The notes under the pieces: model-generated
The model's database searches: none
The model's input: the letters and a program-made list of their open reading frames with translations, nothing else
Told to the model about the DNA's origin: nothing
Part shown: positions 12,290 through 51,282 of the stretch, in pieces
Layout: each line of letters starts with the position of its first letter
How positions within the stretch are numbered: position 1 is the first letter of the stretch
Program-made: the position numbers and the translations under genes
Virus record (IMG/VR): IMGVR_UViG_3300046714_000360
Coordinates: 64,001-124,662 of that record
Source: a virus
Direction: 5' to 3' (one strand)
Length of the DNA stretch: 60,662 bases

Positions 12290-15200
12290 ATGGCCGATGA
12301 GTTCAAAAAGATGTTAGTCAAGATTGGTTTGTCAGCGTCAGAGTATACCACTCTCATTAGACAAATCAAAAAGGACACACAGGACGTACAAGACCAGACT
12401 AGACAGACTGCTAAAGAAGCAATGGATGCCTCTAAAGCAGCTATCGCTGCCACCAAAGAACAGATAGTTCAAGAGCAATTACTTCAGCAGCAAGCTAAGA
12501 CTATGGCTGCTTTAGATCAAGCTAAACTTGCATGGCAGCGTCAGCTTGCTGCTGGAGAAGCTACACGTTCTGCTACAGCGAGAGCAGAGACTGCAGAAAT
12601 CCAGAAACAAATCGCGTTGCTTCGTCAGAAAGCAGCTGAAGCCAAAACAGCTGCTAAAGCTAGTAGTGAGGGTGGAGAAGGAGGAGGTGGCCTTCTTGGT
12701 GGTGTAATGGAAGGCTTAAAAGGTTTGATGGGTGGTGGTGTGTTAGGCGCTGCCTTTTCTGGTGCGTTAGCCGGCGGTGGATTGTTTATGCTTGTCTCCA
12801 AAGCTACAGAGGCTGTTGGTGAGCTTGTCAAGAAAATGGCAGAGATTCCTTTCGAGGCAGGCGAGATCGCTGAGAAGTTCGAAAACATGGCAGCACGTAC
12901 TGGTACCTCTGTTGAAGAGCTAGAGAAGTTGCGCTTGACAGGTGCATCTGTTGGTTTGGGTATGGAGCAAATGTCCACGTTGCTCACTCGCATGGCTTTC
13001 CAGTTCACAAAGAATTTAGGGGATGGTGCCAGTAAAGCTGAGAAGACTCTGCATCGCTTTGGTGTTGAAGTACGTGATGTTCATACAGGTGCTGTACGCC
13101 CATTGACTGAGATCCTCGCAGACCTTGCTGGTGTGTTTGAGAAGCTACCAGATGGGTGGACCAAGAACAGAATCATGATCGAAGCCTTTGGCCGGCAAGG
13201 CGCCCAGCTCATTCCTGTTTTGAATCAAGGCAAAGAAAAGATGCATGAGTTATACGGAGAGGCCAGTCAGCTCAGTATCGTTTTCAGCAAGGAGCTGATC
13301 GAAGCCCAGCATCGTTACAATGTTGAGGCTGAGAAATGGAACATGGAATGGGAGCAGTTCAAAGTTACAATGGGAGAGGGTATACTTCCCATTCTGGCTG
13401 AGGCGTTCGGTTGGATCAATAAGATTGTGCAAGCCATGAATATCGATGCAGATGTTCCTCGTGAGTTTGCGAATGACATCGGGAATTGGGCTACTTCTCA
13501 GGCAGCGTTGAAGCAAGGCAAAGGTAAGTATGCGCGTATGGCTCTGTCTGAAAAAGGACAAGCTCATATGAAAGAGATGATCCCTGAAAGTGTAATGAAG
13601 CAGCAAGATATGTTTAATCCTCAGACATGGCAAGACTGGTATGCGCATGTAAGAGACTCTGGAGGAGACACTAGTAAAGTAATCAAGGCATTCGGCGAAC
13701 AGTTCCCCGACGCTATCGAGAAGGCGAAAAGTTCTCTTGGCAAGATTGATCCACGTTTAACTGATCTCGAAGCCAAGATGAAGAAGCTTGATGCAGCTAC
13801 ACAGAAGTTTCTTGAGACACAAGCCAAAGCCAATGAGGAGTCTGAGCAAGCAGGTATTTCTCAAGTCAAAGATGAAGTCGCTGACAAGTACAAACAAGGT
13901 CAGCTGTCGTACGCCGATTATGCTGCCAAGACTGCTCGGCTCGATCAAAGTATGTATGATAGCCGCGTCAACTACATTGAGAAATGGGCAACCGACGAAA
14001 AGAAAAGGTTGACAGATTCTGAGAAGGACAAAGCTGTTCTAGCAGTCAGAGAAAAGACTCTAGAGATAGAGAAGAATCAAAAGCTTGGGAAAGCGTGGGA
14101 ACAGTTTCAGCATGATAAGCACAAACTCACTCTGCAAGGTGAGCAAGATGACATTGCAGCGCAGATGGCCACTGTCAAGAGCAATGAAGCTCTTGCGAAG
14201 GCCTCGCTTGCCAATATCACCAAGTTGACTGAGGATGCATTTAAAGAACGCCAGATCACAGCTGATCAGTATATCCAATTACGGCAGGAACAGTTTCGGG
14301 CAGAGTTAGACGATGAGATCGAAGGTATTAAAGGCAAGTATTCACTTGAGGCTGACAACGCAAAACGTAGTGCACTTGTCGCTGCAGATGTAGCTAAAGC
14401 CGAGATGGCTTACAATGCGAAAGTTACAGAGTTTGCTGAGCAGCAGGCTTCCATTCGTGATAAGTTTGCCAAACAAGGTTTTGATAATGTAAAGCAAGAG
14501 CTACAAGGCGTGTTGAGTATTACGAATGCACAAGGAGCAGGCAATAGTGTTTTTGGAGGTACGTCTGTTGCTCAGTTGCAGCAGCTACGTGATGTATCTG
14601 TTGACTATCTTCGTAATAGGATGGCAGCGTTGAGTCTTGAGGATGCAGGTACTGAAGCTTGGCACAAGACAAAGATGGAAGTGATAGACGCTGTTAAAGA
14701 CGTACAGCAGTACAATCAAGAGTTGATGACTGCTAAAGATATATTGGTACCAATTTCCGCTGCGTTTGCTGCTATCAGTAAAGACCTTGGACAATTTGGA
14801 GGTAACACTGCTAAGGAGTTGACCAATGCATTTAAGCTAGGTGCCTCTTCTATGCAGCAGTTTTCAAAATTGCATGATGTGATGAATAAAGGTTCCAAGC
14901 AAGATCCCATACAGCAGTTGAAAAGTAATCTACAAGATTTATTTGCTAAAGTGAAGAGTACGAGTGACTCAGCAGGTCAACGGTTTTCTGATCTTACTAG
15001 TAAGACAAGTGATGCTACTAGTCGATTGTCCAATTTTGCAGATGTGTTGACAGCAGGCAATCAAAAGGTAGTTGACTCTGTAGATACACTTGTAGCTGCC
15101 TTTGATCAGTTGACAGGTAGATTTACAGGGAAAGCACAAGGAGGAGATTTTACTACAGGAGATCTAGCTGGACTTGCAGGACCTGCAGGTGGGCCAGATG

Positions 15201-16462
15201 CCAATTCAGCATTTGGTTCATCAGTAGAAGGTTCCCAGAATAGCATTACGGAAGCTACACAAGCGCAAGCAGATGCAACAAATGATTCTGCATCAAAGCT
15301 CTCTGACTTTAGTGAAAAGCTTCAAGCAGGTGTCGGTGCTGTTACAGGACTCATCGCTGCATTTAGTAATGCACAAGGCGCACTTGGAGGTGCCGTGGGT
15401 GGAGGAAGTGCTGTCTTTGGCGCTGTGAGCTCCATGACAAGTAATCCGTACGCAATGGCAGCAGGTGCTATCGGTGGCGCTGTTCTCGGTGGTATTTTAG
15501 GAAGTAAGCGTGCAAGTGCAAAGAAGATGGCCGACGATTTTAAAAAGCAGACCTCTGATATCATGTCGAATGTACAAGACGGTACTACTAAACTCAAAGA
15601 TGGGCTTGCAGATCTTGCTAAGGAACGGCAAGATGCTATCAGTAGTCTCGGTAATAGTAAAAAAGGCAAGAAGGAATTGCAAGGTGTTCTCGATCAGATA
15701 GATGCTGCTACCAAACAGTTGATGCAGCAGCAACAGAAGCTCATGAAAGATTTGACTAGTCAGTTACAGATTTTGAGTGCACCTACTGAGTATCAGCAGT
15801 GGTTAGGTAACATCCAAAGTATTCTTGACAAGTACCAGCAGTTTGCTGATGCTGCTATGACTACTCAAGAATTAGCTCAAGCACAAAAGTTCCTAAACCT
15901 GTCTTTGCAACAGTACTCAGATACGTTGACACAAGATGTCGTTTCTGCTCAGCAGGATGCTATTACAAATGCTATACAGCTTATGGATCTCCAGCAACAA
16001 GCTGCAGATCTTATGGCTCAGGAAGCTCAGCAGGAATGGACTATCTTAACGCAAGGCAATGTAACACGGCAGCAGACTAGTGCACAATCCAAAGGTGCTC
16101 AGATCGAAGCTTCTAGAAAGAACAGGGACGAACAGTTAGATGTTATTAATCAGCAAATCGCTCTTGCACAGTTTAAGTATAGTCAAGAAAAACAGATTTT
16201 TAATTTAGCTACTACCAGGATTGGCCTTGAAGCTGAGTTGCTAGGTCTTCAGAAAGACCAGACTGTACGAGACATTTCACGAATCAATGCCTTGCAAGCT
16301 CTTGTGTCTGCGTTAGCGGGTGGAAACATCAGCAGTCTATCTCAGTTGCTACAAACCTTAGGTATCAATTCTGGGGGAAATTTAGGTGATCAGTTGTTGG
16401 ATGTAGCACAAAGGCGAGGCGGAGCGGGCGGGAATGCTGGCTTAGTGTTTAAACTTTTGTAG
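12290..16462 (+). CDS. Tail tape measure protein
   Basis: This 1390-aa protein sets tail length and passes through the tail at infection. It follows the frameshifted chaperone, as expected. Long coiled coils occupy residues 1-125 and much of 510-1000; two glycine-rich hydrophobic segments (about 125-185, and about 1020-1070) could insert in membrane. By the known rule of about 0.15 nm per residue, the tail would be roughly 200 nm. No lysozyme or peptidase motif was seen. ATG 12290 has AAAGGA upstream. Confidence 0.85.
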   Translation: MADEFKKMLVKIGLSASEYTTLIRQIKKDTQDVQDQTRQTAKEAMDASKAAIAATKEQIVQEQLLQQQAKTMAALDQAKLAWQRQLAAGEATRSATARAETAEIQKQIALLRQKAAEAKTAAKASSEGGEGGGGLLGGVMEGLKGLMGGGVLGAAFSGALAGGGLFMLVSKATEAVGELVKKMAEIPFEAGEIAEKFENMAARTGTSVEELEKLRLTGASVGLGMEQMSTLLTRMAFQFTKNLGDGASKAEKTLHRFGVEVRDVHTGAVRPLTEILADLAGVFEKLPDGWTKNRIMIEAFGRQGAQLIPVLNQGKEKMHELYGEASQLSIVFSKELIEAQHRYNVEAEKWNMEWEQFKVTMGEGILPILAEAFGWINKIVQAMNIDADVPREFANDIGNWATSQAALKQGKGKYARMALSEKGQAHMKEMIPESVMKQQDMFNPQTWQDWYAHVRDSGGDTSKVIKAFGEQFPDAIEKAKSSLGKIDPRLTDLEAKMKKLDAATQKFLETQAKANEESEQAGISQVKDEVADKYKQGQLSYADYAAKTARLDQSMYDSRVNYIEKWATDEKKRLTDSEKDKAVLAVREKTLEIEKNQKLGKAWEQFQHDKHKLTLQGEQDDIAAQMATVKSNEALAKASLANITKLTEDAFKERQITADQYIQLRQEQFRAELDDEIEGIKGKYSLEADNAKRSALVAADVAKAEMAYNAKVTEFAEQQASIRDKFAKQGFDNVKQELQGVLSITNAQGAGNSVFGGTSVAQLQQLRDVSVDYLRNRMAALSLEDAGTEAWHKTKMEVIDAVKDVQQYNQELMTAKDILVPISAAFAAISKDLGQFGGNTAKELTNAFKLGASSMQQFSKLHDVMNKGSKQDPIQQLKSNLQDLFAKVKSTSDSAGQRFSDLTSKTSDATSRLSNFADVLTAGNQKVVDSVDTLVAAFDQLTGRFTGKAQGGDFTTGDLAGLAGPAGGPDANSAFGSSVEGSQNSITEATQAQADATNDSASKLSDFSEKLQAGVGAVTGLIAAFSNAQGALGGAVGGGSAVFGAVSSMTSNPYAMAAGAIGGAVLGGILGSKRASAKKMADDFKKQTSDIMSNVQDGTTKLKDGLADLAKERQDAISSLGNSKKGKKELQGVLDQIDAATKQLMQQQQKLMKDLTSQLQILSAPTEYQQWLGNIQSILDKYQQFADAAMTTQELAQAQKFLNLSLQQYSDTLTQDVVSAQQDAITNAIQLMDLQQQAADLMAQEAQQEWTILTQGNVTRQQTSAQSKGAQIEASRKNRDEQLDVINQQIALAQFKYSQEKQIFNLATTRIGLEAELLGLQKDQTVRDISRINALQALVSALAGGNISSLSQLLQTLGINSGGNLGDQLLDVAQRRGGAGGNAGLVFKLL

Positions 16463-16477: not shown

Positions 16478-19400
16478 ATGCCAATTAAGCTATTGATCAA
16501 TAATGGAGCAGGTGATGTTGATTACACGAATTATGTTGTGCCTAATAGCTTAGTAATTGGAGACAGCATTAATCAGCCCACGCGGTTGCAGTGTACACTA
16601 GTTAACATTAATTCTGCATTTGTGGTTCCGAAGATTGGCGCCTATTTCAAAGTTTTCAGTTCCAAGTATCAGAAGTTCCTTGCGACAGGGTTTATTACTG
16701 CAGAACCTGTTCGCAAGCTCCAAGGGCCGTCTAGGCATGCTCCCACTACCAAGTTTCAGCTGTACTTATACGATATTATAGGCGCTTCCGACGAATGGCT
16801 CGCCAATGTGAAAAGTAATCCTATCATTCCTGCCTATGTGAACCAAGGCAAGGGCCAGATCCTTGCGAATCTGTTGAATGCACTAGTCCCCAGTTTTTAC
16901 AATACTACGTCGTTTGTTGCTTCTGGTGATCTTGTTCCCGCTTTTCAGTATGATCCTTCCAAGACTTGGTCAGATATTGCTAAAGAGTTTGCTGATGCAT
17001 CGAGATATCGTTATAAGGTAATAAACAAAACGTTTTATTTTCAGCCACTAGGTGACGCAGCGCTCGGAATTTCCTATGATGAAGATAGTCAGCCAGAAGA
17101 AAAGTTTGATCCTTATGCTTTGCAGACTGATGTGCTTATTGTGCCACCAGTTAATGATGCTATCGTTCTTGGTGATGTAGAGCCTCAAGATTATAGAGAA
17201 GATCATTTTATTGGCGATGGGTTGACTGGTAATTTTGCATTGCATCATGAGGCTTTTCGGGCGTCCACTGCGCTACTGTTACAGGAAGATTGGGCAGGCA
17301 ATACACTTGCTGCAGACCTTTGGACGAAGGTAGATCCTTTCACAAATTTCAGTCTTGCTGGTGGCTCTCTTAATGTTGTAAGCCCTCCTAACTTGCTGTC
17401 CTCTATGAACGAGTTTGGAGATGCTACTTGGCTAAGGGATGGTGGTGCTGTTGTGCTATCTGATGTGGCTACTGATCCGATAGGAGATAGTACCGCCGAT
17501 GTACTTGTAAAAGGAGCAGGTACAATAACCAATTTCAGTGAGCTGTATGAAAAAGTGACTAATCCGTCTGTAGGCGCCCATGTAACATTTGCTGTATGGC
17601 TTCGGGTTGCGTCAGGTGCTAATGCGTCTGTAACAATTAAGGCAGGTGACTTTGCAGGCAGTCCTACGAGTTTAGGAGTCACAGTCACTACTGCTTGGCA
17701 GCGCTTCTCTGTAACATCAGGTGTAACAAGTACAGGTTTAGTTGCTGCAGGTATCACAGACACTCGGGGTGCAGGAGCTCAGTTACAAGTATGGGGTGCT
17801 CAACTTGTGTTAGGTTCTTCTGCACCGTCTGTTGCAGAGTTAAATCAGACGTATATACAGGCAAAGAATGGTGTAGAGCTCGGTGGCGTTGTATATTTAC
17901 AGCACGGGGAGTTTACTTTTACAGACTCCGGTGTAGGTATTCTTGGAGGTGTCTACAATAACGGCTCTGTCTTTGCAAGCAGGACTTGTGAGTTCGGTTT
18001 TGACGTACGTCCAAGTACGAATGTTACGACATCTGTTTCTGGTGCGTCCGGCGTGTTGATTCAGCCTATCAGATTAGGTGTACGTGTTGGTCCTCAGATC
18101 ATCACGCAACTGAATCATAATTATGTATTATCGAACTATGTTAATTGTCAGCGCTGGGCGCGTGCTAATTCAGTCTTTAGGAGTCTAGTCGGTTCTCCAT
18201 TTGGGGGCAACATCCTCTCTGCTAGTGGCGCAATTACATGGACGGTGTTAGATTATGATATAAACAATCCTAGCGCCTCACCTGTAGCTACTGTTTTTTC
18301 ACAAGATGCAAGTTCTTTGCCTGCTTTTGGTACATACCTTCCAGTAAACTCTGCCAATTTAAATTTGTTTTTTAATTTCACATTGATCTCTCAGCCACCA
18401 CAAGCTACATTAGAAGTCCGCTCACTGTATGGGCCTACAGGACTACTCCTTCCAGTAGGAAGGCCTGTTGCTGTGCCTGGTTCTGTTGCCGCACCTACTG
18501 TTGTTGTAGGAAGTAGTGTAACTGGTGCTTCAGTTTCTTTGCCACTTACTGCGTTGAATGCATTGACATTTTCCGAACAGTTCGATGATGCTATTTGGAG
18601 TAAAACGAATACTGCAGTAACCCCGAATGCCGTTGTCGATCCGAATGGTAATTTGACAGCTGATGCATTAGTGTTTTCTGGGGGCGTTCCCTCCAGTGCT
18701 TTTATTTACCAAAGAATATTTCCACCAATAGTAGCTGGTAATAGTTGGGTGTTTAGTGTTTGGTTAAGAGCTTCTGCAGGTACGCCAACGATTGATCTAG
18801 GCATAGAAGATATTTTTTCTATACACTTTGCCGGAGGCCCGACGACATTTGGATTAACTACTGCTTGGCAGCGCTTCTCTGTTGCAGGTACGTTGAATGG
18901 TTCATCTGTAGACCTTTCATGTTTTCTTACAAGTGCATCAGATCAGACAAAGACCTACTATGCGTGGGGAGCTCAGTTAGAAAAAGGTAGTACACCTTCT
19001 AATTATGTAGGCACTCCGTTTGTGAACGTGAACCGTGCAGGTGCTTTTGAAGATACTACAATGTATGCAAAGCCCGGTGGTCTCGATTTAAATACCACTG
19101 ATAGCAACGTTATGTCTTCTGCATTGTTAGGAAAGACATTGAGTTTTCAAGGCGCCTTGTATGCGTTCGGAGATACTGCTACAGGGAGGATAGTAAATAC
19201 AGCTACTGAAGGACAAGGTCAAGAATATTTTCTTGCTGACGCTAATTTGCCACAGCAGCCGTATTTTTCTTTAAGGGTAGCTGCAGTAGCCACAAATGGT
19301 GATAAACTCACTCAGCCGATTATTGTGCGGTACACAGATGGTTCTGCGGATGTGTTTACTCAAAGTTTCAGTGATTGGAAAACAGGTGCAGGGACTTATC

Positions 19401-22400
19401 CGAATGAGAGTGTTGGAAAGTCTATGGCATATAGTAATCTGAGTTCTGGTGTTAAGGACAATACGACTACTAAGTTGTTCTCCTATGCCTACAATTTGAA
19501 TCTAGCCAAGTCAGTAAAGAGCATCAATATTCCGTCATGCTCAGATCTTGTTTTCTTTGCAATTTCATTGATACCGGTTACTGTTATAGCTACCACGAGT
19601 ACTGCTGGTGCAGTAGCTAGTGGGATGATTATATCAGGCGCACTAGATATAGAACAGAAATACCTTTTAGGTTTTGGTTTTCAGCAGCAAGTAGCAACAC
19701 TTCAGGAGCAGAATGATACCACCGCATTGAGTTTTTATCCAGATACATTACCTGGTGTTGGTGCTAGGATTCGTTTACGTTCTCGCACTGCTGGAGCTTC
19801 TATTGGGCGCGTACGAGATACTAGTTCCATTGCTGCAACAGCAGTTACAGCAGGAGACGATGGTGTAAGGGCGGGTATCTTTACAGGTTTATCACCATTA
19901 CCTAGGACATCAGAAGAAGCAGAGTTCGCTGCATCAGCATTGATAACAGATCGTGTGCACACACAGTTCAAAGGTACATATTCTTTCACTGATGATTTAT
20001 TAACGCCTTATATTCCAGGAGGAGGTGCCAATTTATTAGCAGATGCTCAAAATCTCGTTTCCACAGCATGGGTAGCCAATGCTGTTTCAGGCCAAGTCGT
20101 AGCAGATCAGTTTTTAGCACCTGATAGGTCGTTGACAGCTGATGCGCTTGTTGATTTGTCTACTACTGGTGTATTTAGTGTTACACAATTTTTAACTTCT
20201 AATGATAGTGTTAGGCGATTTTTTAATATCTATATAAAAGCAGGCTCCGCAGGTGTGTGTGCTGTGTTTCTTGATGTCGGTACTGATGATTTGTTTGATG
20301 TAACGTGGGCGTTTGCTTTTGACGCACGTACAGGGCATTGTTCCGCATCAGATTTAGGAGACCCTCCAGACGTTGTAAACATTCAACGGATTCCGAATGG
20401 TTGGTGGCTTGTGTCTGTTAGATTTCCAGTAACACTAGCTACCATCTCGTATAGTGTGACATTGATGCCAGCTGTTGCGAGTGCACTTGCAGGGACAGGT
20501 TTAGGTGTTGTTACTCCGACTGTCAACGCAACGTTAGGCAGCACTCTGTTTTGGGGCGCCCAGTTGTCAGTAGGAACATTTAACACCCCGTATCAGCCTG
20601 TGCTAGCTGACTATCCGTTGAGTGGACGTTTTTTGCCATGTAACTCTCCTAGGAGGGGTATTGTTTCTCAGAATTTGCTTGTGAGCGATGTGTCTATGAC
20701 TGTCCTAGAATCTAGAACAGAAAAGCTAGCATTTCAAGTTACCTTCGGGCCTGATCTCTATTTAGAAAAATTGCTAGCGTTGTTTGTACAGTCTAAGCCA
20801 GTTGGCGTGCTTTTGCCACAAGATAAGACTACTAGGCCTACACCACAGGCACTTGCTAGTGTTGGCACCACGTTTTTGCCTGATTTGGTTGATGCTAAAA
20901 TCACAAATCTAGCAGTCACTCCAGTTAACTTGTTAACCTTTAGTGAACAGTTTGATAATGCTATTTGGAGTAAAACAACAGGTGTAACTGTCACGCCGAA
21001 TGTAATTACAGATCCGTTAGGTGGGCAAACTGCTGATCGTATTGTCTATGATGGCAGTGGTACATCAGGTAATTTTAGGATATTTCAGGCATTGGTCGGT
21101 GCTTCTACAGTAGGGGCGCGTAGGACATTTAGTATTTGGTTGCGTTGCGAGTCAGGTACGGTGTCTGTGAGGATTGCGAGTAATTCTGGTTTTGCATTCT
21201 TGACTTGTAATTTGACTACTGCTTGGCAGCGTTTCCAGCTCACTACAGTTGCTGATGGCTCAGTAGATCAAGTGTTTATTTACTCGCCTGCTGCTACGAA
21301 TACTGCATTCACGATAGATGCGTGGGGTGCCCAGCTTGAGGAAAACATCAATGCTACAGATTATGTGAGGACGAGTGCATTCACAAAAATCTCAGCTAAT
21401 TCGTTTATTGTTGACTCTGGTGTTGATCCAGCTACCATAGGTGTTCCTATTGAGGTCAGGAGAATAGATTCGGGTTGGGGCACAAACGATCAGAACCTCG
21501 TAGGTGTGTTCACACAGCGTGTGTTTAGTTTGCAGCGGCAAGTTCTCGATCAGACTTGGTACTTGCGACTAGCCACTGCTACAAAGGCGTCACGTTTCTC
21601 GAAAGTAATACGTGTAAACTATCCGATGCCCCCAGCAGCACCGAGTATCATTTCATCAGATTCACGCTTTGTACAGTTGGACTTTTCAGGCGATATTAGG
21701 AATATTTACGGTATCGAGTTACGTGCTGGAGATAATGCTACAATTCTTGCACAGCGTCCTGTTTTTGCTAAACAGGATATGTACTTCGATTTGCAAAGTT
21801 TACCAAATTATAAAACAGTGCTTGCGTTTGGTAGGGTAATCTATGCTTATTTCTTTAATCTTCAGTGGGAGTATTCAGATTTCACGCAGGTGCCATTGTC
21901 TGCACCTCCTGGCCCCATTCTGGTTCTTGGAAATAAGTTTGGCTCCCTTGTAGAGGCGCGTTTCGATCAGCTGAGTAGAACAGATATTAATTACACTACA
22001 TACCAAGTTGCACAGGACGCAAATTTCACAGTAAGTGTCATCTCAGTAACAGGTAGTCAACAGCCTGCTGTGATGAGTGTAAATGTACCGAACTCGACAG
22101 GTTCCCAGTTCTTTGCCAGAGCTAGGAGAACAGATTACTTCGGTGATGGTCCATTTGGTCCGACGTTAAACATTCCTTATGGTACGTTGATTGCTTCATC
22201 TTGGTCTGTCGGTCAAGGTAGTATACCGCCTACGCTCGATAATCAAGTGTCATCATTATTTACATATACAGGTACTGCATTGGCTGCTGGAGGAGCAAAT
22301 ACTGGTCGTATTGTAATTACATGGCCAGCTTTTTTGATTATTTTTGCTGATAACACACAACAGTCTGTACTTGCAGGCTCTCTTGATACTCAGTATATGC

Positions 22401-23095
22401 TCTCGTCTTCTACTAGTACGACTACTCCGTATATTTTTTACCCAAGATTGCCAGCGTTTCTTCCAGGTGTGCAGCCACAATTTGTAGGCCTTGTCCCTGC
22501 ACATGTTTCTAAAAGTGTTGCAGATGCACAAGCATGTGTAGCAGATGGGTTTATTCCATTAGGAGGCGCTGCTATAGGATTCACGTTCAATGTACCAGTC
22601 GCACCTGCTACTCCAGGAGATCCTCCGAGTTCAGGTGGAGGTGGAGATGGCGGAACTGGCTGTGTCTCTGTAAATATGTTTGTTGTCACTCCAGCAGGTA
22701 AAGTAAAAGTTACATCTGTAAAGCTCGGTCACATGCTGAGGGGTGTGAATACAAAGACTGGTAAGATGTATTGGAATCTTGTTCATGCTCTTTCATTTAC
22801 CGAAGAACGTTGTGTTAAAATAGTGTTGCAGGATGGCAGCAGTTGTATTTGTTCTAGGTCTACTCCGTTACCAGTATGGCGAGGCAGTAAGGGGCGTTAT
22901 ACAGGTTGTATTCTCGCTAAGGAGCTAACCAGTGAGCACTATCTTTTGAATGACAAGTTTAAGAGAGTCCAGATTGCTAAGCTGACTGATGTAGGATTTA
23001 GAAAAGTTGCTAGGATTACTTTGAAGCCTCGCCACACGTTTTTTGCTGATAGTATTTTGACACACAATGATTTGTTGGAGAAGAATGTTACGTAG
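16478..23095 (+). CDS. Giant tail-tip / hub protein with carbohydrate-binding-like repeats and C-terminal Hint domain
   Basis: A 2205-aa protein directly after the tape measure, where the tail tip hub and host-recognition proteins lie. The N-terminal ~260 residues look hub-like (beta-rich, DYTNYVVPNSL, FQLYLYDIIGASDEW). The middle contains four related beta-sandwich modules ending in WGAQL, and other fibronectin-like segments near 1640-1840. The C-terminus (2062-2197) is an intein-like Hint domain behind a Gly-rich linker (GGGGDGG). It probably forms the tail tip or side fibre, and it may be cut by its own Hint domain. The ribosome binding site is weak (GTGGGG, about 11 bases before ATG). Confidence 0.75.
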   Translation: MPIKLLINNGAGDVDYTNYVVPNSLVIGDSINQPTRLQCTLVNINSAFVVPKIGAYFKVFSSKYQKFLATGFITAEPVRKLQGPSRHAPTTKFQLYLYDIIGASDEWLANVKSNPIIPAYVNQGKGQILANLLNALVPSFYNTTSFVASGDLVPAFQYDPSKTWSDIAKEFADASRYRYKVINKTFYFQPLGDAALGISYDEDSQPEEKFDPYALQTDVLIVPPVNDAIVLGDVEPQDYREDHFIGDGLTGNFALHHEAFRASTALLLQEDWAGNTLAADLWTKVDPFTNFSLAGGSLNVVSPPNLLSSMNEFGDATWLRDGGAVVLSDVATDPIGDSTADVLVKGAGTITNFSELYEKVTNPSVGAHVTFAVWLRVASGANASVTIKAGDFAGSPTSLGVTVTTAWQRFSVTSGVTSTGLVAAGITDTRGAGAQLQVWGAQLVLGSSAPSVAELNQTYIQAKNGVELGGVVYLQHGEFTFTDSGVGILGGVYNNGSVFASRTCEFGFDVRPSTNVTTSVSGASGVLIQPIRLGVRVGPQIITQLNHNYVLSNYVNCQRWARANSVFRSLVGSPFGGNILSASGAITWTVLDYDINNPSASPVATVFSQDASSLPAFGTYLPVNSANLNLFFNFTLISQPPQATLEVRSLYGPTGLLLPVGRPVAVPGSVAAPTVVVGSSVTGASVSLPLTALNALTFSEQFDDAIWSKTNTAVTPNAVVDPNGNLTADALVFSGGVPSSAFIYQRIFPPIVAGNSWVFSVWLRASAGTPTIDLGIEDIFSIHFAGGPTTFGLTTAWQRFSVAGTLNGSSVDLSCFLTSASDQTKTYYAWGAQLEKGSTPSNYVGTPFVNVNRAGAFEDTTMYAKPGGLDLNTTDSNVMSSALLGKTLSFQGALYAFGDTATGRIVNTATEGQGQEYFLADANLPQQPYFSLRVAAVATNGDKLTQPIIVRYTDGSADVFTQSFSDWKTGAGTYPNESVGKSMAYSNLSSGVKDNTTTKLFSYAYNLNLAKSVKSINIPSCSDLVFFAISLIPVTVIATTSTAGAVASGMIISGALDIEQKYLLGFGFQQQVATLQEQNDTTALSFYPDTLPGVGARIRLRSRTAGASIGRVRDTSSIAATAVTAGDDGVRAGIFTGLSPLPRTSEEAEFAASALITDRVHTQFKGTYSFTDDLLTPYIPGGGANLLADAQNLVSTAWVANAVSGQVVADQFLAPDRSLTADALVDLSTTGVFSVTQFLTSNDSVRRFFNIYIKAGSAGVCAVFLDVGTDDLFDVTWAFAFDARTGHCSASDLGDPPDVVNIQRIPNGWWLVSVRFPVTLATISYSVTLMPAVASALAGTGLGVVTPTVNATLGSTLFWGAQLSVGTFNTPYQPVLADYPLSGRFLPCNSPRRGIVSQNLLVSDVSMTVLESRTEKLAFQVTFGPDLYLEKLLALFVQSKPVGVLLPQDKTTRPTPQALASVGTTFLPDLVDAKITNLAVTPVNLLTFSEQFDNAIWSKTTGVTVTPNVITDPLGGQTADRIVYDGSGTSGNFRIFQALVGASTVGARRTFSIWLRCESGTVSVRIASNSGFAFLTCNLTTAWQRFQLTTVADGSVDQVFIYSPAATNTAFTIDAWGAQLEENINATDYVRTSAFTKISANSFIVDSGVDPATIGVPIEVRRIDSGWGTNDQNLVGVFTQRVFSLQRQVLDQTWYLRLATATKASRFSKVIRVNYPMPPAAPSIISSDSRFVQLDFSGDIRNIYGIELRAGDNATILAQRPVFAKQDMYFDLQSLPNYKTVLAFGRVIYAYFFNLQWEYSDFTQVPLSAPPGPILVLGNKFGSLVEARFDQLSRTDINYTTYQVAQDANFTVSVISVTGSQQPAVMSVNVPNSTGSQFFARARRTDYFGDGPFGPTLNIPYGTLIASSWSVGQGSIPPTLDNQVSSLFTYTGTALAAGGANTGRIVITWPAFLIIFADNTQQSVLAGSLDTQYMLSSSTSTTTPYIFYPRLPAFLPGVQPQFVGLVPAHVSKSVADAQACVADGFIPLGGAAIGFTFNVPVAPATPGDPPSSGGGGDGGTGCVSVNMFVVTPAGKVKVTSVKLGHMLRGVNTKTGKMYWNLVHALSFTEERCVKIVLQDGSSCICSRSTPLPVWRGSKGRYTGCILAKELTSEHYLLNDKFKRVQIAKLTDVGFRKVARITLKPRHTFFADSILTHNDLLEKNVT
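17392..21390 (+). repeat. Four diverged WGAQL sugar-binding-like modules inside the tail-tip gene
   Basis: Modules lie at about 17392-17850, 18553-19020, 20020-20600 and 20920-21390. Each shows NLL/LTFSEQFDxAxW, then a TADxLV strand, then TTAWQRF or an equivalent (the third has WWLVSVRF), ending with WGAQL. Modules 2 and 4 also match at DNA level (CTATTTGGAGTAAAAC near 18590 and 20960), and modules 1 and 2 share TACTGCTTGGCAGCGC. This pattern implies internal duplication. Confidence 0.65.
22661..23068 (+). other. Hint (intein-like) domain at the end of the tail-tip protein
   Basis: It starts with Cys2062 (GTGCVSVNMFVVT), contains SRSTPLPVW in the position of the inner block, and ends ILTHN, with His2196-Asn2197 followed by Asp2198 and only eight residues. 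Length is 136 aa with no homing endonuclease. This matches bacterial intein-like domains, which splice or cleave themselves. The residue after Asn is Asp, not Cys/Ser/Thr, so C-terminal cleavage or N-terminal thioester reactions seem likelier than normal splicing. Confidence 0.7.
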
Positions 23096-23104
23096 AGGTG
23101 TTTT

Positions 23105-23485
23105 GTGAAAAGACTGAGGTACTATACAGAAGAGTTAGCAGCTCATGTTAATCCACATGATGTTAGCCAGGTGTCTGCTATAGCTGTACATTGTAGGACG
23201 TATCATTGGGTGAGGATACACACTCAGTTAATTTTAGGTTATGCCGAGTTGCCAGCTGCTGCCTTTCATCTGTTAGTACAAGGGCATGACAGTATAATGT
23301 TGCATCCTTCTTTGCATGATAAGACACCTGTTAAGGTACATGCAAATAAACATAATAACGGCAAGCATGCTGTCCATTTTGAGTATCTAGTGTCTGCTAT
23401 ACAGGCGTCTCCAACAGATACGACAGCTGATCTTGTTGCTAAGCTAGTTGCTGCGGGCCACATATTCCTTAGTCCAGACTTCTAA
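23105..23485 (+). CDS. Hypothetical protein after the Hint-bearing tail gene, 126 aa
   Basis: The start is GTG 23105 behind GAGGTG, ten bases after the tail-tip stop. The protein is His-rich and alpha/beta, with AVHCRTYHWVRIHTQL and HLLVQGHDSIML. No domain recognised. Being the last gene before the replication/accessory part, it may be a tail-related protein. Confidence 0.55.
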   Translation: MKRLRYYTEELAAHVNPHDVSQVSAIAVHCRTYHWVRIHTQLILGYAELPAAAFHLLVQGHDSIMLHPSLHDKTPVKVHANKHNNGKHAVHFEYLVSAIQASPTDTTADLVAKLVAAGHIFLSPDF

Positions 23486-37705: not shown

Positions 37706-39097
37706 ATGTTGCATAAAGAAAAACTCAATTTCATTTTGCGTACCGATTCGTACAAGGTCACGCACTGGAAACAAAATCCACCAGGAACGGAATTCGTTCA
37801 CAGTTATCTGTGCTCTCGCGGAGGCATGTTTCCTTCGACTGTGTTCTTTGGCTTGCAGTACTACTTGCAGGAGTACCTCAAAGGCACAGTGCTTGATGAG
37901 CAAGATGTAAATGAGGCCAAGATGTTCTACAAGCAGCACTTCGGCCGCGACTTGTTCAACTGGCAAGGATGGATGAACGTTGCAAGGCTGCTGGATGGTA
38001 GGCTACCTGTCGAGATCCGGGCAGTTAGAGAAGGCTCGTTGGTCACGAACGGTAATGCACTCATGACCATTGAGAACACCGACGCACGTTTCCCATGGAT
38101 GACACAGTATATCGAGTCGTTGCTGCTTAAGGTTTGGTATCCAATTACTGTGGCAACGTTGTCACATAACATGCGACAGATGTTCTTGTCTGCTTTGCAC
38201 AGGACCGGCACTCCCAGCTTGCTCGACTTCAAAGTACACGACTTTGGATACCGCGGCGTCTCTAGTGAAGAGACAGCTGCGATTGGTGGCGCCTCTCACA
38301 TGTTGAACTTCAGAGGCACAGACAACGTGCCAGCTCTCGCGTTCCTGAGAAAGTTTTATCAAGGAAGTATGGAAGGCTTTAGCGTCCCGGCTGCTGAGCA
38401 TTCTACCATCACGTCATGGGGAGGACCTGAGCATGAGGTAGAGGCATTCGAGAACATGCTTACCCAGTTTCCCGAAGGCATCGTTGCTGTTGTCAGTGAC
38501 TCCTATGACATCTACAAAGCCTGTAGGGAGAAGTGGGGCGAGGTGCTCAAGCAGAAGGTGTTAGAGCGCGATGGCGTGCTCGTTGTTCGCCCCGACTCCG
38601 GCGACCCTAAAGCTGTAGTGCTACAGGTGCTCGACATTCTCGGTGAGAAGTTTGGCTGGGAGACAAATCGTAAAGGCTATCGTGTTCTCTGTCCTAAGGT
38701 GAGAGTCATACAAGGCGACGGGGTCAATTATTGGACGATGCAGGACACGTTAACTGCCATGTCGAAGGCAGGCTGGTCTGCTGACAATTTGACATTCGGC
38801 ATCGGTGGCGCGCTCTTGCAGCAGCTCAACAGAGACACCCAACAAATGGCCATCAAAGTTTCCAACGTTACAGTCAATGGCGTTGACCGCGATGTGTACA
38901 AGAACCCAGTCGGTGACAGTGGTAAGGCATCTCGCGCCGGCAGGCTAGCATTACATAACTGTGGTGGCATCTGGACGACCGCCAAGAAGACAGCGAACAT
39001 CGGCGACCCTGACGATCTGCTTGTGCCAGTATTTCGCAACGGTACAATACTACAGACTCAGTCGATTGATGATGTGAGGGCAACACTCAATGGATAA
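37706..39097 (+). CDS. nampt: Nicotinamide phosphoribosyltransferase (NAMPT)
   Basis: 463 aa, usual family length. NAMPT converts nicotinamide and PRPP to NMN. Recognisable: N-terminal TDSYKVTHW, HDFGYRGVSS near 173, VSDSYDIYK near 260, and RPDSGDP (near 293) at the nucleotide-binding site. Starts three bases after the NadM stop (AAGGAGAGT). NAMPT and NadM together are the pair known as NARP2, which rebuilds NAD+ removed by host defences. The last 8 bases overlap the exonuclease gene. Confidence 0.85.
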   Translation: MLHKEKLNFILRTDSYKVTHWKQNPPGTEFVHSYLCSRGGMFPSTVFFGLQYYLQEYLKGTVLDEQDVNEAKMFYKQHFGRDLFNWQGWMNVARLLDGRLPVEIRAVREGSLVTNGNALMTIENTDARFPWMTQYIESLLLKVWYPITVATLSHNMRQMFLSALHRTGTPSLLDFKVHDFGYRGVSSEETAAIGGASHMLNFRGTDNVPALAFLRKFYQGSMEGFSVPAAEHSTITSWGGPEHEVEAFENMLTQFPEGIVAVVSDSYDIYKACREKWGEVLKQKVLERDGVLVVRPDSGDPKAVVLQVLDILGEKFGWETNRKGYRVLCPKVRVIQGDGVNYWTMQDTLTAMSKAGWSADNLTFGIGGALLQQLNRDTQQMAIKVSNVTVNGVDRDVYKNPVGDSGKASRAGRLALHNCGGIWTTAKKTANIGDPDDLLVPVFRNGTILQTQSIDDVRATLNG

Positions 39098-47241: not shown

Positions 47242-50200
47242 ATGGCAAACTTTGAACAGCTGTTGTTTGAAGATCGTGCTCCTGTCAACGATCTAAAGGC
47301 ATCTAAGGATGGTGTCTTTAAGATCCTGAAGACGAGTTCTCATGGTCGTGGTTGCGACAACTGCCCTTCCAAGAAGAATTGGAAGAGAGGTGTAGAGCCT
47401 GTCATGGGCCGTGTCCGTGGTAAGGACATTTTCATCTTCGCCCAGTCCCCAGGCGCCACCGAGAATCAAAAAGGTAAAGAGCTCATCGGTCGAGCAGGTG
47501 AGTGGTTCTGGAAAGAGATGGCGCGTGTAGGTCTAGAAAGATCGGACTGCGATATCCAGAACGTTGTGAGGTGCTACCCAGTCACGTGGGACACTGATAC
47601 AGACTCTCTTGTGATGCGAGAGCCTTCCAAGGAAGAGTTGCACTGTTGCTCAGTCTATACAGACAAAGCCTTAGAGAAAAGCCAAGCCAAGGTGTATCTT
47701 GTCTTAGGCAAGGTTGCAGGGAAAGAGCTATTAGGCAAAGAGTTCCGCAAAGACCGCCGCATCTTCTGGTCTAACAAGCTCAATGCTAAGGTGTACTGTC
47801 TCGACCATCCTGCCTACTTTATTCGTGGCCATGCTCCGTCATGGAAGCTGAAGGAGTTCCGTGCTACGTTGGAGCAAGCTGCACTTGCCGCAGTCTCTGA
47901 TGGCTCTCAGTACTCGTTCCTTGCTGAGCAGGATTATAAGGGTGTCACCAAAGCTGCCTCTGCAAAGAAGGCTTTCAAGATCATCAAAAAGTATGCACAG
48001 CGTGGAAGGATCACTGTTGATATTGAAGCTGGTTGGCTTGAGAAGCGAGATGATGAAGGGAAAGTAATCAGTAAGAAGTGGGTAGTGTCTTGTGTAGGCT
48101 TTTGTTGGAAGCCTGGCCACTCTCGTACATTCTGTGTCGATCATCCACGCCGAGATGGATGGACACCGATTGTCAAAGACCCAGCCATCAGAGCAATAAT
48201 CGTAAGCTACATCTGTCAGCTGATCGAGGATGCAGAGATCAGAAAGGCTCTACATCACGGCAGCTATGATGATCCTGAGATGCGTGAGTTCCTTGAAGCT
48301 AGGTTACGTGGATATGATTACGACACAAACTACGCCGAGTATCTTGTCACACCAGGCAAGAAGTCGTATGGCTTAGAAGAAATCGCGTTCAGGAAGTATC
48401 CTCAGTTCTCCGGCTACAAGATGATCCGCTATCCTGAAGGGTTCAAGACAGATGAGATCAACTTCGGTAAGGTTAAGAATCCATCGCCTGAGCAGGTAGT
48501 CAAGCTTGGGATGAAACAAGGTAAGATGAACCTCTGTCGCATGCCTTGGAAAAAGATGGTGATGTACAATGGTGCCGACTGCGATGTCACTAAACGCATC
48601 GAGATGGATACCAAGAAACATGTAGTCATGCCGCTGATGCGCGTGTACAAAGATGCAGCGTACACAGTTGACTACATGGAGAAGCACGGCCCGCGGTTAG
48701 ACTTCGAGCATCTAGCTGCACTCGATACAATCTTCCCGCCTCGCCGCGAGGACTTGCTCAGAAAGATTCGCCAGATCGTTGGCGATCCTGAGTTCAATCC
48801 AAATTCCAATCCACAGCTGTTGAAGTTCCTGTACAAGAAGCTCAAGCTTCCCATCGTTAACGCCGAAGAAGATCCAGCAACAGGTGAGCTCAAACCAAAT
48901 ACCAGGAAAGAAACGTTACAGATCCTCGCACAGAAGCACGAGTTCCCTCAACTCATTCTTGACTTCCGCCGCGTGAGTAAGATCTGTTCTACCTATCTGA
49001 AAGGCTTTAGGATCTCTGCGGAGTTACACAAAGGACATCTGCAAACCAAATGGTGGTTGACTGGCACACGCACAGGGCGCATGAGCTCGGGTGGCGGAGG
49101 ACAAAAGGGTGGTGCGGAAGATGGTATCGTTAATCTGCAGAACGTCCACGGTGACCAGCAGCTGCAGAATCTTATCATCTCCAGTAAGAATTGGCGCAAG
49201 GTTTATAAGGCTTGGCGCAAAGCCCACAAGGTCAAAGTTACCTATGCCAAGGACGGTACAGTAGCTAAAGATGAAAAAGGCAAGCCACTCATCGCAGTCA
49301 AGTTGCGTGCCGGCTATGCAGACTGGTGGAAGGCGTTTCTTAACACTCGTATTTTCCTGGCCTTTGATCAGGCGCAAGTTGAGATCAGGGTACTCGCCCA
49401 AGCGTCAGGCGATCAACGGCTTATTGCGGATATTAAGAAGGGAGACATCCATTCGCGAGTAGGGCATCGCATTACAGGTTGGGCCATCGAGAAGATTAAG
49501 CATGATAAGAAAACCAGGACGTTGACCAAGAACGTTCACTTCGGTATGGTATTTGGTCTGCGTGAGAATGGTTTGTACGATTTCATCAAGGCGAAAGACC
49601 CGACAATTGATAAACGGTATGGTGGCGAGAAGAGAGCTAGGAAAGAAATCGCTAAGTTGCAGCGCGCCTACTTCGAGTACTACTACAAGGTCAAGGAGTA
49701 CCAAGTTCATCAGCAGGAGTTCGCAGCCGAACATGGCTATGTTGAGACGCTACTAGGTTACAGGCGTCCGCTAGATACACGTGATCGCGACGACATTGAG
49801 GAAGGTGATGAGAGCGATCTCGGTACAGCATATTGGGGTAATGTAGCGATCAATTGCCTTGACTTTGCCACTGAAGGTCTCACACAACGTGGTTGGGTGA
49901 AAGGGTACGAGCTAAAGCCAGGTGATGTGTTGCTTACGAAGAATCAAACTACAGGTAAGCTTGAATGGCAGTCTGCTACCGATGTTAAAGTGTATCCAGA
50001 GTACACACAGCCACTTGTTCAGTTCAAGTCCCGTTCTTTTAATGCAGCATCTACTTTAGATCATAGATGGTTGGTTACACGGCATGGCACATCTCGTTGT
50101 ATAGAAACGAAAGACATTTCAGGCTGGGGAGATGACAAAATACACAGGACTGGTTTTTATGAAGGTCCTAGTGTGTCTCCATATCCTGATGACATTGTTA

Positions 50201-51282
50201 GGTTAGTCGGCTGGTTCTTGACAGATGGTCATATAAATCGTGGTAAAGGCTATGGTAGTTCAGGTGTCACTATCTGTCAAAGCCAAGCAGGCAATCCAGA
50301 TAAAGTGCGTAAAATTGATTCACTCTTTCGTAGGCTCGAGACGTCTTGTGGACTCTCTTATAGCACCAAAGAGCCAGAAAATAGAAAAGACGAGGAGGTT
50401 TTTTGGCATTTTAGTGCTCGGTGGGGGAATTGGATGCGTGCTTATTTTCCTGACCGCCTACTTACACCGAAGTTTCTTGCAGAGCTGCCGCGTCACCAGC
50501 TTGAGGTGTTATTGGATACGATGCTACTAGGTGACGGTTGTGGGCAGGATTTAGATGGATTCTTAAAGAAAGAAAAAGACAAGGTCAGTTTTTGTGCAAA
50601 GACCAAGAAGCAGATAGATGCATTTCAGATGCTCTGTATGCTTTGTGGTAAAGCATGCAATGTGACGTATCGTGACATGAGTATGTATAAGCCTCAGTCT
50701 CTCAAAATGAAGAATATACCTAAGATGACTGGTGTGTGGGTTGCCAACGTGCTCAGTAGGAAGTATGCACAAGTCACAAAAGCTCAGAAGAGTATTGTCC
50801 CAAATAAAGGTGTGTGGTGCCCTGTCGTGCCAAACACATTCTTTGTTGCTCGGCGCCATGGGCAGCCGTTCATAACCGGGAATACTCCTATTCAAGGGAC
50901 AGCCCATCAGTTGATGATCATTGTGATGGCCTTGATGAAGCGCTTTCCGAAGAGATACAAGCTGCTTAAGGATCTCGTTATGGAAATCCATGATGCGATG
51001 GTCTTCTCAGTCAAGCTGAAGGATATGTTTACTGCAGCTACCTTAGGTGATACGCTTATGACTAAGCATGTGCTCAAGGTAGTGAAGAAGGAGTTCAAGA
51101 TTCCTTGGGAAGTCCCCTTAGAGGTAGAACCGAAAGCTGGATATCGTTTAGGGACTACTGTTCCGTTCAACAAAGACACAACGATACCTGAGTTCTTAAC
51201 TGAATGGGGGCTGCATTGCCATGCAGCTGAGATGAACCTCAGAAACGAGCTTAGTAAAGTAGTCCCTGTATCCGTACAATGA
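47242..51282 (+). CDS. polA: UDG-like/DNA polymerase I (family A) with intein
   Basis: 1346 aa including a 343-aa intein. Residues 1-215: uracil-DNA glycosylase-like, with FAQSPGATENQKGKELIGRAG-type motif, NVVRCYP and LDHPAYF. From about 250: 3'-5' exonuclease (VDIEA near 260; ADCDVTKR near 446). Polymerase: motif A FDQAQVEIR near 707, motif B KNVHFGMVFG near 765, motif C MEIHDAM near 1247 (catalytic Asp kept, following Glu replaced by Ala). The intein (872-1214) splits motif NTPIQGTA. Without the intein the protein is 1003 aa. No 5'-3' domain. Confidence 0.9.
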   Translation: MANFEQLLFEDRAPVNDLKASKDGVFKILKTSSHGRGCDNCPSKKNWKRGVEPVMGRVRGKDIFIFAQSPGATENQKGKELIGRAGEWFWKEMARVGLERSDCDIQNVVRCYPVTWDTDTDSLVMREPSKEELHCCSVYTDKALEKSQAKVYLVLGKVAGKELLGKEFRKDRRIFWSNKLNAKVYCLDHPAYFIRGHAPSWKLKEFRATLEQAALAAVSDGSQYSFLAEQDYKGVTKAASAKKAFKIIKKYAQRGRITVDIEAGWLEKRDDEGKVISKKWVVSCVGFCWKPGHSRTFCVDHPRRDGWTPIVKDPAIRAIIVSYICQLIEDAEIRKALHHGSYDDPEMREFLEARLRGYDYDTNYAEYLVTPGKKSYGLEEIAFRKYPQFSGYKMIRYPEGFKTDEINFGKVKNPSPEQVVKLGMKQGKMNLCRMPWKKMVMYNGADCDVTKRIEMDTKKHVVMPLMRVYKDAAYTVDYMEKHGPRLDFEHLAALDTIFPPRREDLLRKIRQIVGDPEFNPNSNPQLLKFLYKKLKLPIVNAEEDPATGELKPNTRKETLQILAQKHEFPQLILDFRRVSKICSTYLKGFRISAELHKGHLQTKWWLTGTRTGRMSSGGGGQKGGAEDGIVNLQNVHGDQQLQNLIISSKNWRKVYKAWRKAHKVKVTYAKDGTVAKDEKGKPLIAVKLRAGYADWWKAFLNTRIFLAFDQAQVEIRVLAQASGDQRLIADIKKGDIHSRVGHRITGWAIEKIKHDKKTRTLTKNVHFGMVFGLRENGLYDFIKAKDPTIDKRYGGEKRARKEIAKLQRAYFEYYYKVKEYQVHQQEFAAEHGYVETLLGYRRPLDTRDRDDIEEGDESDLGTAYWGNVAINCLDFATEGLTQRGWVKGYELKPGDVLLTKNQTTGKLEWQSATDVKVYPEYTQPLVQFKSRSFNAASTLDHRWLVTRHGTSRCIETKDISGWGDDKIHRTGFYEGPSVSPYPDDIVRLVGWFLTDGHINRGKGYGSSGVTICQSQAGNPDKVRKIDSLFRRLETSCGLSYSTKEPENRKDEEVFWHFSARWGNWMRAYFPDRLLTPKFLAELPRHQLEVLLDTMLLGDGCGQDLDGFLKKEKDKVSFCAKTKKQIDAFQMLCMLCGKACNVTYRDMSMYKPQSLKMKNIPKMTGVWVANVLSRKYAQVTKAQKSIVPNKGVWCPVVPNTFFVARRHGQPFITGNTPIQGTAHQLMIIVMALMKRFPKRYKLLKDLVMEIHDAMVFSVKLKDMFTAATLGDTLMTKHVLKVVKKEFKIPWEVPLEVEPKAGYRLGTTVPFNKDTTIPEFLTEWGLHCHAAEMNLRNELSKVVPVSVQ
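49855..50883 (+). mobile_element. Intein with LAGLIDADG-type homing endonuclease in PolA
   Basis: Begins at Cys (49855, residue 872; CLDFATEGLTQRGW) and ends at Asn (50881-50883; FITGN), followed by Thr+1. Contains TLDHRWLV (inner Hint block) and two DOD motifs, VGWFLTDGH and LLDTMLLGDGC. The penultimate residue is Gly, not the usual His. Sits inside a highly conserved polymerase motif, a typical intein site. Confidence 0.9.

Follow-up and report, generated by a model that had tools for sequence, protein, structure and literature searches.

The locus examined here raises the question of why a giant phage tail protein ends in a Hint domain followed by only a few residues, and what chemistry this domain might perform there. 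The window, i.e., the whole 60,662-nucleotide stretch of DNA that was analysed, covers bases 64001-124662 of a virus record that is 124,662 bases long. Its gene series runs through portal, head-tail adaptor, tape-measure and tail genes, in that order, and the features relevant to the question are as follows.

12290..16462 (+): tape-measure protein, 1390 aa; the adjoining upstream gene, giving the tail context
16478..23095 (+): tail protein, 2205 aa; ORF directly downstream of the tape-measure gene
22616..22660 (+): Gly-rich linker GDPPSSGGGGDGGTG, residues 2047-2061, with Gly at -1 (sequence)
22661..23068 (+): Hint domain, 136 residues, Cys2062 to Asn2197 (phmmer, AF2 model, relatives' profile)
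22661..22663 (+): Cys2062, block A nucleophile (Cys1), TGT codon; kept in 40/40 family members
22850..22867 (+): block B, C-S2126-R-S-T2129-P, with S-x-x-T replacing T-x-x-H (family alignment; tandem Hint of locus L084)
23063..23068 (+): His2196-Asn2197, block G, predicted Asn cyclisation site; kept in 40/40
23069..23092 (+): C-terminal tail DLLEKNVT, with the Lys2202 codon at 23081-23083; tail Lys family-wide
23105..23485 (+): ORF of 126 aa, role unassigned, starting 10 bases past the tail-gene stop

The tail protein and its C-terminal domain

Residues 1-1810 of the tail protein were colinear with gp15 of Tunturiibacter phage Tunturi_4, whose gene order also matches, and four spike/fibre-type domain matches (NCBIfam) fell within the 2205 aa. 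Since neither gp15 nor gp16 of Tunturi_4 contains a Hint domain when compared with the window protein, the domain represents an added cap and not an insertion into the shared protein. The original prediction had described a 2205-aa tail protein with an intein-like domain from Cys2062 to His-Asn 2196-2197 (22661-23068) behind a Gly-rich linker, with Asp at +1, only eight residues remaining and another gene ten bases later. The ORF and its translation reproduced this exactly to the base, with the linker at residues 2047-2061, Asp and seven more residues (DLLEKNVT) and then TAG past Asn2197, and the next ORF at 23105-23485. For this downstream ORF, Pfam returned nothing and PHROGs nothing significant. 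Many relatives lack such a gene at this place, in several prophage relatives the operon ends at the Hint gene, and the 126-aa gene is probably unrelated to the Hint system; its candidacy as a partner of the domain was dropped because the gene after the Hint gene varies among relatives.

According to the structural model, the C-terminal domain is a horseshoe-shaped, all-beta Hint fold. phmmer matched the gp41-1 intein over the entire domain, from Gly2061 to Asn2197 (E 8e-7), and this intein (6qaz) was also the closest PDB sequence match (25% identity, TM 0.9 by target). Structure prediction, originally proposed as the check on the fold, agreed: the AF2 model, built on an alignment of 18 sequences, reached a pLDDT of 84.6 and a pTM of 0.78, and in Foldseek it matched gp41-1 (E 3e-10) and further Tetrahymena BIL2, DnaB inteins, a Clostridium BIL and Hedgehog. 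VIA gave Z values of 19-20 to inteins and Hedgehog (20.0 to 1mi8 over 133 residues at 1.6 Å; 19.6 to Hedgehog 1at0). A profile of the relatives, with the window sequence left out, gave the window domain 47.6 bits and gp41-1 25.2 bits. Compared pairwise, gp41-1 was slightly nearer (31 bits) than the best single relative (28 bits), and the window domain is therefore a divergent member of its family.

gp41-1 keeps the block-B His (CSEEH) and splices, whereas the window domain has Ser2126-Arg-Ser-Thr2129 at this position, lacking the catalytic His, and has no real C-extein. Class 1 inteins interrupt a protein with a known uninterrupted form and are followed by a C-extein with Cys, Ser or Thr at +1; the window domain lies at the C-terminus with Asp at +1 and eight residues after it. 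Class 3 inteins are without Cys1/Ser1 and carry a W-C-T motif with Cys at F:4, whereas here Cys1 is present and the block F position is Arg. The arrangement found, a C-terminal His-Asn without a +1 nucleophile (HN then D), is that of type A BIL domains, which cleave and occasionally ligate. Behind the window domain there was neither the variable toxin domain of PT-HINT proteins nor the sterol-recognition region of Hog domains, just eight residues. Toxin delivery and a Hedgehog-type sterol domain were rejected on this architecture, as was classical splicing, for which both the +1 nucleophile and a real C-extein are missing. The initial judgement that classical splicing is unlikely is thus upheld by the C-terminal position and the non-nucleophilic +1 residue.

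Family members and their carriers

Direct searches with the window domain recovered almost no relatives, and Pfam, NCBIfam and PHROGs held no model for the family, with isolated weak matches only across 18 members. The family was opened only by a degenerate DNA pattern for block B, which identified 78 stretches in IMG/VR, the majority of them encoding a long protein that terminates in the same Hint domain. With two pattern-found members as queries, tblastn detected a pair of copies in each of the Xanthomonas phages PhiXhv-12/15/16 and in Erwinia phage Ep032, more copies in Stenotrophomonas phage DLP6, one of which closes the DLP6 VrlC protein, and one copy each in Xanthomonas phages LucasX and XacN1. 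The family set comprised about 73 full-length sequences, reduced to 40 at 70% identity, and a prophage set was added afterwards. At the start of DLP6 (L090 1-1655), an open frame with a Hint domain at its end is absent from the gene annotation.

Cellular genomes rarely carried the family (1/399 in one order and 3/398 in one phylum). It was present in 14/144 genomes of one family that includes Microbulbifer-like genomes, where it closes proteins of 1278-2054 aa. In the three regions that were read (L148, L149 and L151), the Hint-ending gene belongs to a lambda-like tail cluster and comes after the tape-measure gene, the closest layout match to the window. No sequence homology was detected between the module just before the window Hint and the conserved 'YYVYCDDP..GG' module of prophage relatives. 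A Burkholderiales MAG (L096, 4623 to locus end) carries the same Hint type ahead of a long repeat region, RHS-like by eye, and the position of the domain in cells is therefore not always C-terminal. Other carriers were VrlC-like proteins (phrog_358) and two tail-fibre families. Across the family, the domain caps unrelated virion proteins, namely siphophage tail tips, tail fibres and VrlC-like baseplate proteins, and is therefore a portable end cap. Phage inteins have mainly been described as insertions into genes for replication, metabolism and packaging, and no description of a C-terminal Hint domain in phage tail proteins was found in the open-access literature. A Hint family without the block-B His, unmodelled in the three domain collections, here end-caps proteins that touch the host.

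The nature of these carriers bears on two possible roles. Capping the C-terminus of several tail proteins that are unrelated and probably oligomeric, the domain could act as an intramolecular chaperone or timer of tail-tip folding and subsequently release itself by hydrolysis at Cys1; C-terminal cleaved chaperones are known from tail fibres. We consider this role quite unlikely, as no folding-chaperone function is known for Hint domains, the Gly/Pro linker sets the domain apart from the folded part, and the lysine described below would be unexplained unless it replaces His. The carriers are also distal-tail, adhesin-type proteins, and the domain might serve as a covalent harpoon, its Cys1 thioester staying loaded in the virion and being passed to a host-surface amine or hydroxyl at adsorption. 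Thioester adhesins such as SfbI exist (PMC4450167), and loss of the fast His would slow premature reaction. However, the tip position is itself a deduction, an exposed Hint thioester would hydrolyse, and a universal Lys in the protein's own tail suggests an internal partner, which together make a harpoon very improbable.

Catalytic residues and the lysine of the C-terminal tail

Among the 40 members below 70% identity, some as little as 20-30% identical, both Cys1 and His-Asn were invariant (40/40 each). At +1, Cys occurred in none and Ser or Thr in 2/40, while Gly stood at -1 in 27/40, mostly following a Gly run that is itself sometimes preceded by a Pro run. The block-B His was absent from all 40 (Ala in 29, Thr in 11) and block-B Ser replaced Thr in 40/40; some loci had been preselected on this motif by the DNA pattern, and those members that were identified through tblastn or the profile instead (L087-L107, L123-L147) concur. 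A 497-aa ORF of locus L084 (2996-4489, -) ends in two tandem Hint domains, CSTTH in the first and CSTTA in the last, which fixes the aligned position of the block-B His. The T-x-x-H motif is highly conserved among Hint domains but not a strict requirement; some splicing inteins also lack this His (PMC7664689), and its absence therefore leaves membership in the Hint superfamily intact. Intein block-B His mutants often lose the N-terminal reaction (PMC7765530); with the His missing, the N-terminal step needs compensation.

A universal lack of this His could indicate a dead Hint domain retained purely as a structural fold. We regard this as improbable, given that Cys1 and His-Asn are strictly kept and that they disappeared jointly with the tail Lys in the sole clearly degenerate copy, a paralogous Hint-like gene of PhiXhv-12 (XYR92700; L088 6423-6842) directly behind a Hint-ending gene.

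The phage members have only 3-32 residues after His-Asn, and all 37 of these short tails contained Lys. It was the second-last residue in 23 of the 37, a place that Lys occupies in 9.9% of 455 other proteins encoded at these loci. Overall, the Lys lay at +1 to about +31 after the Asn. Arg was at or below expectation. With one member per 50% cluster, Lys was present in 17/17 tails versus 7.1 expected, a value reached in 0 of 20,000 draws; the counts were 12/12 at 40% clustering and 8/8 at 35% (p about 2.5e-4), although such p-values overstate independence, the tails being homologous within subgroups. The feature had been noticed on the 37-tail set and was then checked on the prophage set fetched later, in which Lys occurred in 23/23 tails and Arg in 2/23, with HN-xxxKP-stop as the usual ending. 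As these tails (17 distinct) are interrelated, the result is a confirmation and not 23 independent events. The ribosome-binding site of the next gene was rejected as the source of the Lys excess, because where visible in the prophage set it is located past the stop, and Arg was not enriched. The original prediction was accordingly sound on the fold, the C-terminal position and the +1 residue, and had missed the absent block-B His, the widespread family and the universal tail Lys, the last of which narrows a vague guess to one testable residue.

The invariant His-Asn could also mean that C-terminal cleavage is the only reaction, with Asn2197 cyclising, the short tail being shed, and Cys1 retained for a structural role or a slow side reaction. 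Loss of the block-B His, which chiefly affects the N-terminal step (PMC7765530), would suit this. However, Cys1 is equally invariant, Gly is common at -1, and a Lys in every lineage is unexpected for a tail that is merely discarded; we consider cleavage at this end alone unlikely.

Candidate processing chemistry of the tail tip

Cleavage at the Cys or capture of its thioester, as originally suggested, would be consistent with how strictly Cys1 and His-Asn are conserved and, by analogy, with the precedent of BIL2. The explanation we tentatively prefer, at a little less than an even chance, is a self-processing C-terminal Hint domain, Gly-linked to the tail tip, whose thioester is resolved by an amine, with Lys2202 as the best candidate acceptor or as a stand-in for the His. 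The module would be Hedgehog-like in layout and type-A-BIL-like at its ends, joined to the tail-tip protein by the flexible Gly-rich linker. Cys2062 would attack the Gly2061-Cys2062 bond and form a thioester with the 2061-aa tail protein. Because there is no Cys, Ser or Thr at +1, splicing would not follow and the thioester would be resolved by an amine, for which Lys2202 of the short tail, in the same or a neighbouring subunit, is the best candidate. Its attack would yield an isopeptide-capped or cross-linked tail tip, and the Hint domain would be freed by Asn2197 cyclisation. Alternatively, Lys2202 might substitute for the lost block-B His, leading to plain N-terminal release. Under both roles of Lys2202, the tail protein in the virion would end near residue 2061 and might additionally bear a short branched peptide.

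Each step has some precedent. Type A BIL domains form a Cys1 thioester, undergo Asn cyclisation and have the thioester resolved by an amine (PMC4031507). They share the fold, Cys1, C-terminal His-Asn and lack of a +1 nucleophile with the window domain (Z 17.4 to the Clostridium thermocellum BIL, 2lwy); unlike them, the phage family sits at the extreme C-terminus, has the block-B His in 0/40 and bears a short Lys-containing tail. Tetrahymena BUBL BIL2, among the best structural matches (6tmm, 6y75; Z 17.6-17.9), forms an isopeptide bond to Lys (PMC8616854). It keeps the catalytic His69 and lies between ubiquitin-like domains, whereas the window domain is carried by a virion protein without a ubiquitin-like domain. 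The Hedgehog autoprocessing domain (1at0, Z 19.6) is likewise C-terminal and processes the part upstream, and the Gly-Cys junction is common to both. In contrast to this eukaryotic signalling protein, the window protein has no sterol-recognition region, and Asn is the last residue of its domain. For a catalytic role of Lys, the Tko CDC21-1 intein, which also lacks the block-B His, uses Lys in that role in its N-terminal step, according to a citation within PMC7765530; it differs in being a true splicing intein within a cellular gene.

A family without the His and always with the tail Lys fits Lys as either acceptor or catalyst. The acceptor role is preferred because the Asn-Lys spacing varies while the distance from the C-terminus is steadier, and the spread from +1 to about +31 is wider than a fixed catalytic position would suggest. 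Further points against the explanation as a whole are the frequent loss of the N-terminal reaction in block-B His mutants of inteins, the Gly at -1, which is not one of the bulky -1 residues able to compensate for a missing block-B His (PMC6333167), and the divergence of the window member. A more specific form, possible but rather doubtful, is an ATP-free, ubiquitin-like conjugation in which the Hint thioester hands the Gly-rich C-terminus of the tail protein to the Hint-tail Lys (its own or a neighbour's) or to another partner, giving isopeptide-capped or welded tips. Phages may thus complete their tail tips, or weld them, through self-driven protein chemistry. The cap predicts an unseen processing or cross-linking step during tail assembly, and the C-termini and annotated lengths of many tail proteins may be wrong. 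The family also supplies natural mini-Hint domains that may function without the catalytic His.

Elsewhere in the window, a 1346-aa protein (47242-51282, +) carries an N-terminal uracil-DNA-glycosylase-superfamily domain (61-210) followed by a family A DNA polymerase, the match to which is split in three pieces. A single 950-aa ORF (55726-58578, +) has PHROG matches to SbcD-like (23-301) and SbcC-like (333-949) proteins, and on these matches the two subunits appear to be fused. A nicotinamide phosphoribosyltransferase gene (37706-39097, +; NAMPT_N plus NAPRTase) likely serves phage NAD+ salvage.
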